From: a virus
Reading direction: 5' to 3' (one strand)
Virus record (IMG/VR): IMGVR_UViG_3300029319_000049
Coordinates: 1 to 41,177 of that record
DNA length: 41,177 nucleotides
In this document: positions 4,502-40,693 of the stretch, piece by piece
Position numbering within the stretch: the first letter of the stretch is position 1
How the letters are laid out: the number at the start of each line of letters is the position of its first letter
Position numbers and translations under genes: made by a program
Notes under the pieces: model-generated
Database searches by the model: none
What the model saw: the letters and a program-made list of their open reading frames with translations, nothing else
Told to the model about the DNA's origin: nothing

Positions 4502-5377
4502 TTAAGTTAGTTCAACATTTCTAGGCAAGTCATCAATATCAACTACAAAATTATTGATATCCTCCTGGCTCGCTCTAGTTTCTTTATACTTTAATAGCAC
4601 TATACTATTATTCGTATCAAGAAATCTTAGGTCATCATCATCACCATTAATTAGGTTATATTCTCGACCATATAATTTTATCTTGTGTTCATTCTCCATT
4701 AATCTTGTCACTTGGTTTTCATTCTTAATCACCATAGCAATATTAAACTTAGTCTTAGTAGCTTGTTCGATATACTCTTGAGCAGTATTAACTTTTGAAT
4801 AGCTAAAGGTTAGATGATAATTTGATATCTGATTATCCAACTTTTGCAAATTGAGTAGATACTTAACTATCTTTGTATAATCATAAAATTCTACCTCATC
4901 TTCATATTCTTTTAAGATATCTAAGTATAATCTCACAATATCAATATCACTCGTTCCATTTATCCTTATAGCTACTTTTGTATTATCTCGTTTAGCTTTT
5001 CTTATTCCTGTTTCAATATCTTTGATAAGCATTTCTTTAAACAGTTCTGGGTGGTCTTTAAACAAGGCAAGTTTTCTAAATCTTGCAACTTGATTAACTG
5101 AGAATTTACCTCGACCACTTTCATTTAAACAAGGCCCATGACATTTGAATTTATCTGCCATAGCACACACATTACCATATGGATATGTTTTGTATGGTGA
5201 CATATAATTAACGCCTGTTGTATATCCTTGTTTCTTACCTTTCTCAACTTTTGTATTGGTATCATATCCTAACAATTTGCTAGGTAATTTCTCCATTAAA
5301 TGTTGATACTTGCTAGGTATAATTTGAAACTTTTCAAACTCACTTAGCTTGTGATATGTTGGGTATAGATCAACCAT
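4502..5377 (-). CDS. GP88-like Cys-containing phage protein, 291 aa
   Basis: The largest complete gene of the minus operon. The region at residues 57-88 has YMSPYKTYPYGNVCAMA, then KCHGPC and LNESGRGK; later come a Lys/Arg-rich helix, IRINGTSDID (about residue 138) and EFYDYTK (about 162). The layout (two to three Cys, a GRG turn, then an Asn-Gly-Thr-Ser-Asp and FYDYTK segment) resembles the 'gene product 88'-type proteins of phages and plasmids, whose biochemical role is not established; this assignment is from memory. A metal site at the Cys residues is possible. Ribosome site AAAGGAGGTGATTATAAATT. The last ~80 residues are variable and acidic. Confidence 0.6.
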   Translation of the reverse strand: MVDLYPTYHKLSEFEKFQIIPSKYQHLMEKLPSKLLGYDTNTKVEKGKKQGYTTGVNYMSPYKTYPYGNVCAMADKFKCHGPCLNESGRGKFSVNQVARFRKLALFKDHPELFKEMLIKDIETGIRKAKRDNTKVAIRINGTSDIDIVRLYLDILKEYEDEVEFYDYTKIVKYLLNLQKLDNQISNYHLTFSYSKVNTAQEYIEQATKTKFNIAMVIKNENQVTRLMENEHKIKLYGREYNLINGDDDDLRFLDTNNSIVLLKYKETRASQEDINNFVVDIDDLPRNVELT

Positions 5378-18114: not shown

Positions 18115-18993
18115 ATGTCAGAAACTAACGAAGAAGTCAAAGTTACCAAAGACGAAAAAACAGGTGACACAATAATGAAAAAACCTACAAGGTATAAAAG
18201 ACTAGAGCCAACAGCTCAAGAACTTGCTGCCGAAGAGGAATTAAAAGCTAGAGAAGAAGCTAACGGTCTTGCTACTGAAGAAGTAGAAGAAGTAGCTGCT
18301 ACTCCAGAAGAGGAGTCTTTTAAGAAAAGATATGGAGATCTTAGAAGACATGCTCAAAAACAAGCAGATGATAAAGATAAAGAAATTGCTGCATTAAAGC
18401 AACAGTTATCACAAGCTACAGAAAAACAGATTAAGCTACCTAAGACTGATGAAGAATTAGATGCATGGTCTGCTGAGTATCCTGATGTTGCTAGGATTAT
18501 TGAAACAATTGCTATTAAGAAATCAAAAGAGATGAATAAAAATATTGAAGATAGATTAGAAAATCTAACTCAAAAAGAATTAAAATCATCTAGAGATTTA
18601 GCTGAAAGAGAATTATTATCAATACATCCTGATTTTGAAGAAATTAGAAACGATCCAACATTTCATGATTGGGCAGAAGAACAACCTGATTATATTCAAA
18701 CAGCATTATATGATAACGAAACAGATGCAAAAGCTGCAGCACGTGCTATAGATTTGTATAAAGCAGATAAAGGAATTAAGAAGAAAAGAAAATCTTCTAA
18801 GTCAGCTGCTCAAAATGTTTCTGTTAAAGGTGGATCACAGCCTTCTGATAATGCTTCAATAGGTGAATCTATTAAAGAATCAGATGTAGCTAAGATGACA
18901 GCACAAGAATATGAAGCTAATGAAGAAAGTATAGCTAATGCAATTCGTTCTGGTAGTTTTGTTTATGATATAAGCGGAGCTGCTAGACAGTAG
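18115..18993 (+). CDS. capsid scaffolding protein
   Basis: Very acidic N-terminus (residues 1-65), then FKKRYGDLRRHAQKQADDKDKEIAALKQQL (about 69-98), a coiled coil with the 'xFKKRYGDLRRxxxxxxxExxxLKxQL' motif I recognise from scaffolds of podovirus-like and marine phages; the C-terminus is Lys-rich (KKKRKSSK around 224-231) then mixed, suited to bind the coat. 292 aa and the position just before the major coat gene support the call. It assembles the prohead and then leaves. Ribosome site AAGGAGACTAAA. A terminator follows within 3 bases of the stop. Confidence 0.85.
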   Translation: MSETNEEVKVTKDEKTGDTIMKKPTRYKRLEPTAQELAAEEELKAREEANGLATEEVEEVAATPEEESFKKRYGDLRRHAQKQADDKDKEIAALKQQLSQATEKQIKLPKTDEELDAWSAEYPDVARIIETIAIKKSKEMNKNIEDRLENLTQKELKSSRDLAERELLSIHPDFEEIRNDPTFHDWAEEQPDYIQTALYDNETDAKAAARAIDLYKADKGIKKKRKSSKSAAQNVSVKGGSQPSDNASIGESIKESDVAKMTAQEYEANEESIANAIRSGSFVYDISGAARQ

Positions 18994-18995
18994 AT

Positions 18996-19019
18996 ATAGG
19001 TTGACAAAACCTATTTTTT
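18996..19019 (+). terminator. rho-independent terminator after scaffold gene
   Basis: ATAGGTT (18996-19002) pairs with AACCTAT (19008-19014), loop GACAA, followed by a T-run to 19019. The stem starts 3 bases after the scaffold stop codon. The 7-bp AT-rich stem may allow partial read-through. Confidence 0.65.
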
Positions 19020-19028
19020 GTATATATA
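19001..19028 (+). promoter_or_regulatory. promoter overlapping the terminator, ahead of the coat gene
   Basis: The terminator loop contains TTGACA (19001-19006), a perfect -35, and TATATA at 19023-19028 gives a 16-base spacer. A second TTTGACA at 19077-19083 with TATCAA at 19103-19108 is weaker. A promoter here would boost coat-protein transcription beyond the terminator, as expected for the most abundant virion protein. Not proven. Confidence 0.45.
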
Positions 19029-19054
19029 TGTTACATATATACTACACTCGTAGT
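19023..19054 (+). repeat. two adjacent hairpins in coat-gene leader
   Basis: TATATATG/CATATATA (19023-19030, 19034-19041; 8 bp, loop TTA) followed by ACTAC/GTAGT (19041-19045, 19050-19054; loop ACTC). They share base 19041. Part of a stack of inverted repeats filling the gap between scaffold and coat genes. Confidence 0.5.
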
Positions 19055-19066
19055 AGGCCGAAGGTT

Positions 19067-19083
19067 GTCAAATACGTTTGACA
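19067..19083. promoter_or_regulatory. palindrome GTCAAATACGTTTGACA, operator candidate
   Basis: Perfect inverted repeat TGTCAAA-TACG-TTTGACA (19066-19083). A 17-base copy with one difference (GTCAAATACATTTGACA) occurs at 39708-39724 before the exported-protein gene, so it is a recurring intergenic motif, perhaps a repressor/activator site or an RNA hairpin. Confidence 0.5.
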
Positions 19084-19104
19084 TTTTCCCACCCTACATT
19101 TTAT

Positions 19105-19199
19105 CAAACGAAATTCAACTCAGGCTACCTGATGTTATGGCCTCTAGGCATAGACACCCATAAAACTCATCAGCCCTTACGATGTCGAGTTATCGTTTG
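19105..19199 (+). ncRNA. long imperfect stem-loop, structured leader of the coat gene
   Basis: Nested complementary segments: CAAACGA (19105-19111) with TCGTTTG (19193-19199); AACTC (19117-19121) with GAGTT (19187-19191); CTGATG (19129-19134) with CATCAG (19168-19173); TTATGG (19135-19140) with CCATAA (19158-19163); and an apical GCC/GGC (near 19140-19149). The arms nest in order, as in one extended hairpin of ~95 bases. Ends 17 bases before AGGAGATACAAA and the coat start. Confidence 0.45.
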
Positions 19200-19231
19200 T
19201 TGGCCCTTAATTATATTATAGGAGATACAAA

Positions 19232-20305
19232 ATGGCCTTTAAAGTAGCGTCAGGTTATCAAAACCTACCTAATGGTAATTTCTCTCCAGTCATTTACAGT
19301 CAAAAGGTTCAGCAAGCATTTCGTAAGAGTTCTGTTTCTGAGTCAATTACTAATAATGACTACTTTGGAGAAATTGCAAACTTTGGTGACACAGTTCGTA
19401 TCATCAAAGAGCCTGAAATAACAGTTAAAGAATACGCTAGAGGTACTCAAATCGTTCCACAAGATTTAGACGATGAGGATTTCAGCTTAGTTGTTGACCA
19501 GGCAAATTACTTTGCTTTTAAAGTAGATGACATTGAGGAAGCTCATTCTCATATTAACTTTGAAAGCATGGCATCAGATCGTGCAGGCTATCGACTCCGT
19601 GATCAATATGACCAAGAAGTATTAGGATATTTATCTGGATATAAACAATCCTCTTTAAGCACAGCAGCAGGAGCAGTAAACGATGTCGTTTCTGGTACTA
19701 AAGCTGTTGGCACTGCAGGAACAGATGAACTTCTAACATCTATGAAGTTGAGAAAAGATTCTTTTGGAAACATCACAACTTCTTCAGCAGGGGATCATTC
19801 AATCCCACTAGCAATTAGGCTACCAGGTGCAACATCAGTTGCAACTGCTACAGCCACACCTTTACAGGTTGTTGCTAGAATGGCTAGACTTCTTGATCAA
19901 CAACAAGTTGATAAAGACGGAAGATGGCTCGTAGTAGATCCAGTGTTCATTGAATTACTTGCAGACGAAGACTCAAGATTACTTAACAATGATTACCGAA
20001 ATAAAGGTGATCTAGAAAGTGGTCTAGCAGTTGGACAACTACATGGATTCGATGTATATGTTTCAAGCAACCTACCTTCAGTTGGAACTGGTCCTGCAAC
20101 CTCTGGTTCAGCAAACCAAAATTCTAACTATGGTGCGATTGTTGGTGGACATAGTTCAGCAGTTGCTACTGCTTCTCAGATCAATAAAGTAGAATCTTAC
20201 AGAGATCCTGATTCATTCGCTGATATCGTCAGAGGAATGCAGATGTATGGAAGAAAGATACTTAGACCTGAAGGCATTGTGACAGCTAAATATAACGCAG
20301 CGTAA
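19232..20305 (+). CDS. major capsid (coat) protein
   Basis: 357 aa. The segment NGNFSPVIYSQKVQQAFRKS (about 14-33), NNDYFGEIANFGDTVRIIKE (41-60), VKEYARG, and QDLDDEDFSLVVDQANYFAFKVDDIEE (about 77-103) is the standard N-terminal signature of a coat-protein family common in marine podoviruses and related to the P22/N4-like HK97-fold capsids; the C-terminal 'SADAIVGG...INKVESYRDPDSFADIVRGMQMYGRKILRPEG' region also fits in outline. It forms the icosahedral shell. Strong ribosome site ATAGGAGATACAAA. Preceded by the terminator/promoter and structured leader, and it is likely the most expressed gene. Confidence 0.93.
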   Translation: MAFKVASGYQNLPNGNFSPVIYSQKVQQAFRKSSVSESITNNDYFGEIANFGDTVRIIKEPEITVKEYARGTQIVPQDLDDEDFSLVVDQANYFAFKVDDIEEAHSHINFESMASDRAGYRLRDQYDQEVLGYLSGYKQSSLSTAAGAVNDVVSGTKAVGTAGTDELLTSMKLRKDSFGNITTSSAGDHSIPLAIRLPGATSVATATATPLQVVARMARLLDQQQVDKDGRWLVVDPVFIELLADEDSRLLNNDYRNKGDLESGLAVGQLHGFDVYVSSNLPSVGTGPATSGSANQNSNYGAIVGGHSSAVATASQINKVESYRDPDSFADIVRGMQMYGRKILRPEGIVTAKYNAA

Positions 20306-39529: not shown

Positions 39530-39703
39530 ATGGCAGGGCACGAAAGAAAATTTTCATCTAAGATGTTAGCAGATTCATTTTATTCTCAAATGAAATATGA
39601 TTTGGGATTTGAGTGTGAACAACCACTCAATGAGGATAGTTATTGGATTGTAAAATGGACAGCGTGCCCTACATGCACGTGTAATGAATCAGAGAGGGAG
39701 TAG
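39530..39703 (+). CDS. small Cys-motif protein, 57 aa
   Basis: Charged helical N-terminal two-thirds; C-terminus has WTACPTCTCNESERE with a CxxCxC motif (Cys46, Cys49, Cys51) plus Cys29, suggesting a metal or redox site. GGGAG lies 8 bases before the ATG. Unrecognised. Followed by the palindrome at 39708. Confidence 0.65.
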   Translation: MAGHERKFSSKMLADSFYSQMKYDLGFECEQPLNEDSYWIVKWTACPTCTCNESERE

Positions 39704-39707
39704 TCAC

Positions 39708-39724
39708 GTCAAATACATTTGACA
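39708..39724. promoter_or_regulatory. palindrome GTCAAATACATTTGACA, second copy
   Basis: Same 17-base motif as at 19067-19083 (16 of 17 bases identical), located 16 bases before the TTG start of the exported Asn/Thr-rich protein and overlapping its leader. Because the gene's ribosome site follows directly, this TTGACA cannot be a -35 for that gene's own leader; an operator or RNA-hairpin role is more likely. Confidence 0.5.
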
Positions 39725-39739
39725 AATAGGGAGGAAACA

Positions 39740-40693
39740 TTGTCAACATTTAAACAGATAAGAGATTTAAGTATCATAGCAGTAACTGTAGTTGCTGTTA
39801 CCACTTTAGCATTTGCAGAGGATAGTAACATAACAAATACGACTACGACTACATCTACTGTAACGAGTACAAATACCAATACAAATAATAATACCAATGT
39901 AAATCAAACAACTAGCAACAACACCAATACCAATCTTAATACCAATAATACAACCATAAACAGTACTGCAACAAATACCAATAACAATACTAATGTCAGC
40001 ACCTCAACTAGCAATGTGACATCGAATATAACTCAAACACAAAATGTTACAAATACTAGTGACAGCACTGTCAACTCAACATCAAATAATACTAATGTGT
40101 CAACAAATAGTAACACCAATGTAAACACATCTACATCTAGTAGCACAGTTAATACACAAAATGTGAACACCAACAACAATAATAATGTAAATAGTTCACA
40201 GAATGTGAATACCAATACATCAACTAGTACATCATCTGCTACACAAAAGGTGACACAAAGAATTAAGACCGCCCCTCCGTCAGCGGTAGCCCCTTCCATC
40301 ATGTCCTATTCCCAGGACCTATGCACTACAGGGGCTTCAGCAGCAGTCCAGACACAAATATTCGGTGTATCAGCAGGTAAATCTGTACGAGATGAAAACT
40401 GCGAAAGACTGAAACTCAGTAAAGGCCTCTATGACATGGGGATGAAGGTCGCAGCAGTAAGTTTATTATGTGCTGATCATCGTGTTTTTCAAGCGATGGA
40501 ACAGGCCGGCAGCCCTTGTCCATATAAAGGTAAGATAGGTGCTGAAGCTCAAAAAGCATGGGATGAAAATCCAGAAGACAGACCTGATTGGCATTTAATA
40601 AAAGCTGAAATGAAAGGTCAAGAGTTTAGAGCATACAAAAAGAAAGACTTCTGTAAAAAATATCCTACACAAAAACTATGTACAGACTCCTAA
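39740..40693 (+). CDS. Sec-exported Asn/Thr-rich protein with conserved C-terminal domain, 317 aa
   Basis: TTG start at 39740 with AGGGAGGAAACA. Signal peptide: basic start, hydrophobic LSIIAVTVVAVTTLAFA, likely cleavage after AFA (residue 26). Residues ~28-175 are almost only Asn, Thr, Ser and Val, a low-complexity repeat of 'NTNxNNxTNV' units that is probably extended or beta-forming. The C-terminal ~130 residues are a different, conserved domain: CTTGASAAVQTQIFGVSAGK, DENCERLKLSKGLYDMGM, AAVSLLCADHRVFQAMEQAG, SPCPYKGKIG, with about six Cys; this recurs in marine phage genomes. DNA of that part (40265-40400) is richer in GC. Exported by the host; surface or periplasmic role unknown. Confidence 0.75.
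   Translation: MSTFKQIRDLSIIAVTVVAVTTLAFAEDSNITNTTTTTSTVTSTNTNTNNNTNVNQTTSNNTNTNLNTNNTTINSTATNTNNNTNVSTSTSNVTSNITQTQNVTNTSDSTVNSTSNNTNVSTNSNTNVNTSTSSSTVNTQNVNTNNNNNVNSSQNVNTNTSTSTSSATQKVTQRIKTAPPSAVAPSIMSYSQDLCTTGASAAVQTQIFGVSAGKSVRDENCERLKLSKGLYDMGMKVAAVSLLCADHRVFQAMEQAGSPCPYKGKIGAEAQKAWDENPEDRPDWHLIKAEMKGQEFRAYKKKDFCKKYPTQKLCTDS

Follow-up and report, generated by a model that had tools for sequence, protein, structure and literature searches.

The window analysed here (the whole stretch of 41,177 nt, positions 1 to 41,177 of IMG/VR record IMGVR_UViG_3300029319_000049) carries the same 17-bp palindrome, GTCAAATAC(G/A)TTTGACA, upstream of two widely separated genes, one specifying a coat protein and the other an exported protein. 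The question raised by this locus is whether the two copies form a shared operator that joins capsid synthesis with surface-protein synthesis, as was proposed in the first-pass annotation, or belong to an element of a different kind, acting as DNA or as RNA. Both 17-mers were confirmed at the positions given in Table 1 (sites 1 and 2), and the window holds no further copy, even when up to three mismatches are allowed (at this setting the chance mean in the window is 0.31, and four matches were seen in 0/100 shuffles).

The palindrome and its surroundings

The perfect dyad is GTCAAA-N4-TTTGAC (16 bp), and is longer at both sites, extending to TGTCAAA/TTTGACA at site 1 and to GTCAAAT/ATTTGAC at site 2. 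The record behind the window is a virus contig of 58,414 bp (58.4 kb; G000), and a scan of the whole record revealed a third copy with exact arms, GTCAAATGTATTTGAC, at nt 55557–55572 (site 3), outside the window and within a minus-strand ORF for a DNA primase-like protein (by comparison with the HMO-2011 primase). The three dyads (19067, 39708 and 55557) split G000 into roughly even thirds of 20.6, 15.8 and, if the record is circular, 21.9 kb.

The genome is that of an HMO-2011-type phage, a group that is among the dominant ocean phages (PMC9038755). Its coat region shares about 66% DNA identity with those of HMO-2011 and CRP-1, and the window coat protein resembles the 'putative coat protein' of HMO-2011. 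A GP88 family protein encoded at 4502–5377 of the window (PF17338, E 6.5e-36) also has a relative in HMO-2011, and a match to C-5 cytosine DNA methylases (PF00145, E 8.5e-14) is found outside the window at nt 57420–58385 of G000. The upstream gene stops at 18993 and the coat ATG is at 19232, and site 1 falls in the 238 nt that separate them; the equivalent gap in HMO-2011 and CRP-1 is 240–263 nt. At the start of the gap, a promoter of the form TTGACA-N16-TATAAC, or a close variant of it, is present in most of 40 non-redundant leaders, and a stricter, generic promoter scanner did not list the coat promoter in the window. Site 1 lies about 30–45 nt 3' of the expected start of coat transcription, and the palindrome would therefore be transcribed, about 137–140 nt upstream of the coat ribosome-binding site. 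No intrinsic terminator (a GC-rich stem followed by a T run) was found at the dyad on the plus strand, and a role of the dyad as a promoter -35 box was rejected on reading the sequence, there being no -10 element at the right distance.

Site 2 occupies the space between a stop codon (39701–39703) and the GGGAGG ribosome site (39729–39734) of the exported-protein gene, ending 5 nt before the latter. The earlier description of both copies as lying just ahead of late genes does not fit site 1, which stands 149 nt upstream of the coat ATG. Site 2 was found in only very close relatives (G019, G020). It is kept in L215 and, with the centre ATAT, in L216, and it is absent from G047/G048, which retain the primase copy. 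The C-terminal domain of the exported protein recurs very widely among marine viral contigs, with at least 597 relatives; some of these contigs are 60–90 kb in length and may represent other phage types.

Table 1. Features of the coat gene locus and of the site 2 locus (window coordinates).
Feature	Position (nt)	Strand	Basis
Upstream hypothetical protein gene, scaffold-like position	18115..18993	+	Gene-order comparison
Putative coat gene promoter, TTGACA-16 nt-TATATA	19001..19028	+	Same place in most of 40 leaders
Predicted hairpin P1, GTAGG.CC.gaaggt..attttc.CCAC.CCTAC, with the palindrome as apical stem	19053..19097	+	RNA fold; module after promoter
Site 1, reported palindrome, dyad TGTCAAA-TACG-TTTGACA	19067..19083	+	Arms kept in 24 close leaders
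Predicted P3/P4 domain, CTAC.CTGATG...CATCAG.CC enclosing ATGG.CC.TCTA[GGCA]TAGA.CAC.CCAT	19118..19180	+	Covariance model, 25.3 bits; covariation
Coat ribosome-binding site, AGGAG	19220..19224	+	Sequence reading
Coat (major head) protein gene	19232..20305	+	PHROG phrog_267 major head protein, E 3e-67
Small ORF (57 aa), ends 4 nt before site 2	39530..39703	+	Sequence; relatives found
Site 2, same dyad, in the order stop codon, site 2, GGGAGG ribosome site	39708..39724	+	Sequence; L215/L216 conservation
N/T-rich exported protein, TTG start, signal-peptide-like N-terminus	39740..40693	+	Sequence

The leader RNA of the coat gene

Coat leaders were compared across 80 related viral contigs and isolated phages. 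They have in common an internal-loop module, 5'-G-CC-(stem)...(stem)-(N)NAC-C-3', abbreviated GCC/(N)NACC, the flanking stems of which differ in sequence from phage to phage while their pairing is kept. The module occurs at three places: P1, which is the first hairpin; P3, a long-range helix that has it in inverted form; and P4, a hairpin lying inside P3. It was detected in 27 of 42 non-redundant leaders (shuffled mean 0.33, maximum 3), and a P1 module following the promoter in 20 of 40 leaders at a threshold of 9 (shuffled maximum 2). The GCC/NNACC internal loop may resemble the C-loop RNA module, for which the papers searched offered no consensus suitable for comparison.

When the group was aligned by sequence anchors alone, the pairing of P1, P3 and P4 exceeded that of all re-dealt 3' strands (0/2000). 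A MAFFT alignment of 16 P3/P4 domains had 91.3% of its cells paired and 12 of 23 pairs changed on both sides; cells with a double change numbered 51, and sliding the partner never gave more than 11 (a further control gave 0/500). The covariance model built from these 16 domains, which were taken from other phages, returned 13 matches in 523 kb of other sequence, all at coat-leader positions and including HMO-2011 (E 6e-7), CRP-1 (E 0.0019) and several other groups. With filters off, the window domain reached the score given in Table 1; it was not reported under default filters or in a whole-genome search, probably because the window P4 has no long apical hairpin. When 22 whole leaders were simply aligned with MAFFT, RNAalifold predicted hardly any structure (-5 kcal/mol), because hairpin interiors do not align, and anchoring on the conserved loop letters solved the alignment. 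Searches of Rfam 15 with the window and the loci of 14 relatives returned no match at the gathering threshold, and a permissive search of the leader gave chance-level matches only, among them a weak match to freshwater-2 that was dismissed as covering just the ribosome site. The comparison of leader sequences makes it a well-supported conclusion that the coat leader of HMO-2011-type phages is a conserved structured RNA; it seems not to have been described before, there being no matching family in Rfam and no account of a leader RNA for these phages in the papers searched.

In the apical loops of P4 (6–7 nt) there is often a self-complementary tetramer, the sequence of which (GGCC, GCGC, AGCT) changes from phage to phage. 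It was noted in L027, L035, L038, L045, L047, L058, L061, L077, L084 and HMO-2011, and a rough extraction, which also caught window-type P1 tips, found it in 13 of 18 distinct loops. Loops of this kind, absent from the window P4, would fit kissing-loop pairing of two leader RNAs.

The window P1 reads GTAGG.CC.gaaggt-TGTCAAATACGTTTGACA-ttttc.CCAC.CCTAC, with the last t of gaaggt being the first base of the dyad, and folds at -14.3 kcal/mol (0/200 shuffles were as stable). A DNA scan found 43 near-relative coat leaders, comprising 24 in which the tip of P1 is the palindrome (P1a), 18 in which it is GTAGACCAGAATTTTATATTCTCTACTCTAC or a close form (P1b), and one that is truncated before P1. The P1a arms, TGTCAAA/TTTGACA, are invariant, the centre is TACG, CGTA, TACA, TGTA or TATA, and the flanks are variable. 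Since the sequence of the P1 tip differs in other phages, the palindrome is a feature of one clade. The full P1b hairpin was searched for elsewhere in the genome of G021, where the leader copy was the only one. Two mosaic leaders, L122 and L129 (compared with L009 and L010), carry a P1a tip on the P3/P4 half of the other type, which suggests recombination inside the leader.

Recurrence of the dyad and a candidate binding protein

In a blind test for 6-nt arms shared at any spacing, three-copy dyad families appeared in 154 of 640 shuffles (24%), and so the bare coincidence of three copies is not impressive. The outcome of the loosest tests was governed mainly by AT runs or by arms shared without regard to spacing, and a stricter blind test was used instead (same spacing, at least two G/C in the arm), and this gave 3 of 1478 shuffles. 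In an independent test, which took the two window copies as the hypothesis and scanned the remaining 17 kb, a copy was found in 2 of 3000 shuffles. Dyads with one mismatch were absent from G000, G024, G026, G048 and G019, which showed exact copies and a few with two mismatches.

Among genomes with P1a leaders, the dyad is present three times in G000 and twice in each of G019, G024 and G026. It is absent from the P1b genomes G021 (53 kb) and G022 (39 kb), and from HMO-2011, CRP-1 and HTVC033P. The scan of the genome and its relatives that had been proposed as a check on the operator thus has a mixed outcome: copies are few and close relatives have the palindrome, while the wider phage group is without it. 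Within IMG/VR, 87 stretches contain TGTCAAAYRYRTTTGACA; coat leaders of this kind make up about 27 of them, and primase genes of this kind about 20. The primase genes of the window phage and of the G024/L317 lineage share 68.7% DNA identity and only 0.8% of their 16-mers are identical, the dyad included. Its codons read TCA AAT AC(A/G) TTT GAC in three lineages, in which the neighbouring residues vary; a single base of one arm is changed in lineage L223/L224, and the more distant primase of G021 has no dyad. A scan of cellular genomes gave scattered matches, with no marine alphaproteobacterial regulon among the matches listed, so that a host regulator is not supported. It is moderately supported by these sequence comparisons that GTCAAA-N4-TTTGAC recurs beyond chance, as if one protein recognised three sites.

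At sites 2 and 3 the RNA of the dyad folds no better than shuffled sequence (z about -0.2) and the GCC/NNACC module is absent; the three sites therefore share the dyad and not the P1 hairpin. Several traits of operators were seen, namely symmetric conserved arms, a variable centre (of the pattern YRYR) and repeated copies beyond chance; the leader comparison placed a promoter upstream of the dyad at site 1, and reading of the sequence revealed none at sites 2 and 3. Invariant arms, combined with a centre that occurs in both orientations, would be more in keeping with a DNA complex of two-fold symmetry than with an RNA loop bound by protein, and the dyad looks like a candidate protein-binding DNA site. 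The original idea of a shared operator survives in so far as the dyad is shared and conserved and resembles a protein-binding DNA site more than a chance recurrence, and needs amending at site 1, which is also the tip of an RNA hairpin. The proposed link between capsid and surface protein is weak, with site 2 present in the closest relatives only and site 3 lying in a replication gene. Because site 2 is poorly conserved and G047/G048 keep the primase copy, conservation does not point to joint control of the two.

The gene-content comparison drew attention to a DUF3102-like protein of about 260 aa, encoded on the complementary strand at nt 52792–53583 of G000, between a helicase and the DNA polymerase. 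One search found its gene in 12 records of the dyad clade and a second search added more, and G034, the L223 contig with the changed primase arm, retains it. It is absent from 19 dyad-free relatives, near-complete ones included, even when a profile was used; HMO-2011, CRP-1 and HTVC033P lack it. Contigs that have the coat dyad and lack this gene also lack the helicase region, and so are not counterexamples; only three genomes with a coat-leader dyad cover the replication genes. The matches to DUF3102 (PF11300; 22.1, 21.8 and 14.8 bits) are below the Pfam gathering score of 24.4 and denote a resemblance only. A segment of 15 residues, LPFSRQMAHNYRKIA, is invariant between forms of the protein that are about 42% identical. 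The structure prediction for this presumably helical protein is of low confidence (pLDDT 52.6), and a Foldseek search with the poor model returned no PDB match. As the dyad-bearing phages are one clade, shared descent may account for the joint presence of the dyad, the primase type and the DUF3102-like gene. An association seen in a single clade is weak evidence, and makes the DUF3102-like protein a lead, the best candidate for a protein that binds the dyad.

The reading we prefer (probability about 0.55) is that site 1 is the apical stem of P1 in a promoter-driven coat leader RNA and that the dyad of this clade is a DNA site for a phage protein. Being free to vary between phages, the tip of P1 can carry an extra element, and in this clade it would carry the dyad that is also present at 39708 and within the primase gene. 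The protein would be dimeric and phage-encoded, with the DUF3102-like protein as the best candidate. Sitting some 30 bp past the coat promoter, it would prevent or postpone transcription of the coat gene until replication has started; through the dyad in the primase gene it might exert feedback on the replication genes. The leader RNA would act separately, on how stable the coat mRNA is or how well it is translated, perhaps through its binding of coat protein or of a host factor. A stronger version, in which a DNA operator is nested in the free P1 tip and the same 17 bases act both as a duplex bound by an HTH-like phage protein whose gene lies among the replication genes and as the tip of an mRNA hairpin, is tentative and we regard it as rather doubtful.

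Alternative explanations and relationship to known systems

It could instead be that the element is RNA only, site 1 being a leader stem and the other copies a result of coincidence or descent, without shared function. This would sit well with the strong covariation of the leader, the quite different P1 tips of other phages, the 24% of shuffles in the looser blind test and the lack of site 2 in G047/G048, but we consider it unlikely given the few shuffles that produced copies in the stricter and independent tests, the exactness of the dyad in a primase segment with variable flanking residues, and the lack of near-miss copies. An operator acting at the RNA level, with a GUCAAA/UUUGAC hairpin in three mRNAs bound by one RNA-binding protein, appears improbable. 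Such a hairpin would cover the ribosome site at site 2, as in MS2-type translational repression, and it is in keeping with this that the palindrome reads identically in each transcript, is displayed at the apex of P1 in the coat leader, and at site 2 is so close to the ribosome site. However, the loops are swapped (UACG, CGUA, UACA, UGUA, UAUA) while the arms are fixed, the reverse of most protein-bound hairpins; the hairpins of sites 2 and 3 are no more stable than shuffled sequence, and some 140 nt separate site 1 from the coat ribosome site.

Even with one copy inside a coding gene of the replication module and with the roughly even spacing of the three sites, it is very improbable that the dyad is a genome maintenance site (of the partition, condensation or replication type, for example) rather than an operator, as there are only three sites, two were seen in G024 and in G026, and circularity of the record is not established.

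The searched papers contain no description of how the structural genes of HMO-2011-type phages are controlled. The covarying coat leader RNA, missing from Rfam, is a concrete, testable regulator, and the three-site dyad together with its candidate binding protein offers a first handle on transcription control in these phages. If it exists, the nested operator would couple replication to capsid synthesis in a dominant group of ocean phages, and it would be unusual for the same bases to serve both as an operator-like dyad and as the freely varying end of a conserved hairpin in an mRNA.

In comparison with the operators of dimeric repressors (lambda- or P22-type), the dyad is likewise two-fold symmetric, of 16–18 bp and present in few copies per genome, with fixed arms, a variable alternating centre and one dyad downstream of a promoter; unlike in those systems, two of the three dyads have no evident promoter, one lies within a gene, and the regulator is a candidate only. 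The translational operator of the MS2 coat system is similar in being a hairpin in a coat-associated mRNA, and site 2 abuts a ribosome site, but the window phage is a dsDNA phage of the HMO-2011 type, and at site 1 an operator of this kind was rejected, since about 137 nt lie between the palindrome and the coat ribosome site downstream of it, and the loop of the hairpin is variable. The gene order of the window phage is that of other HMO-2011-type phages (PMC9038755), and the leader RNA is present in HMO-2011 and CRP-1; unlike the isolates HMO-2011, CRP-1 and HTVC033P, it has the palindrome, the P1a tip and the DUF3102-like gene. Structured 5' leaders of late or structural genes in other phages show the same arrangement of promoter, long structured leader, ribosome site and highly expressed coat gene, and the present leader differs from these in general by belonging to no Rfam 15 family and by being defined by three GCC/(N)NACC modules.
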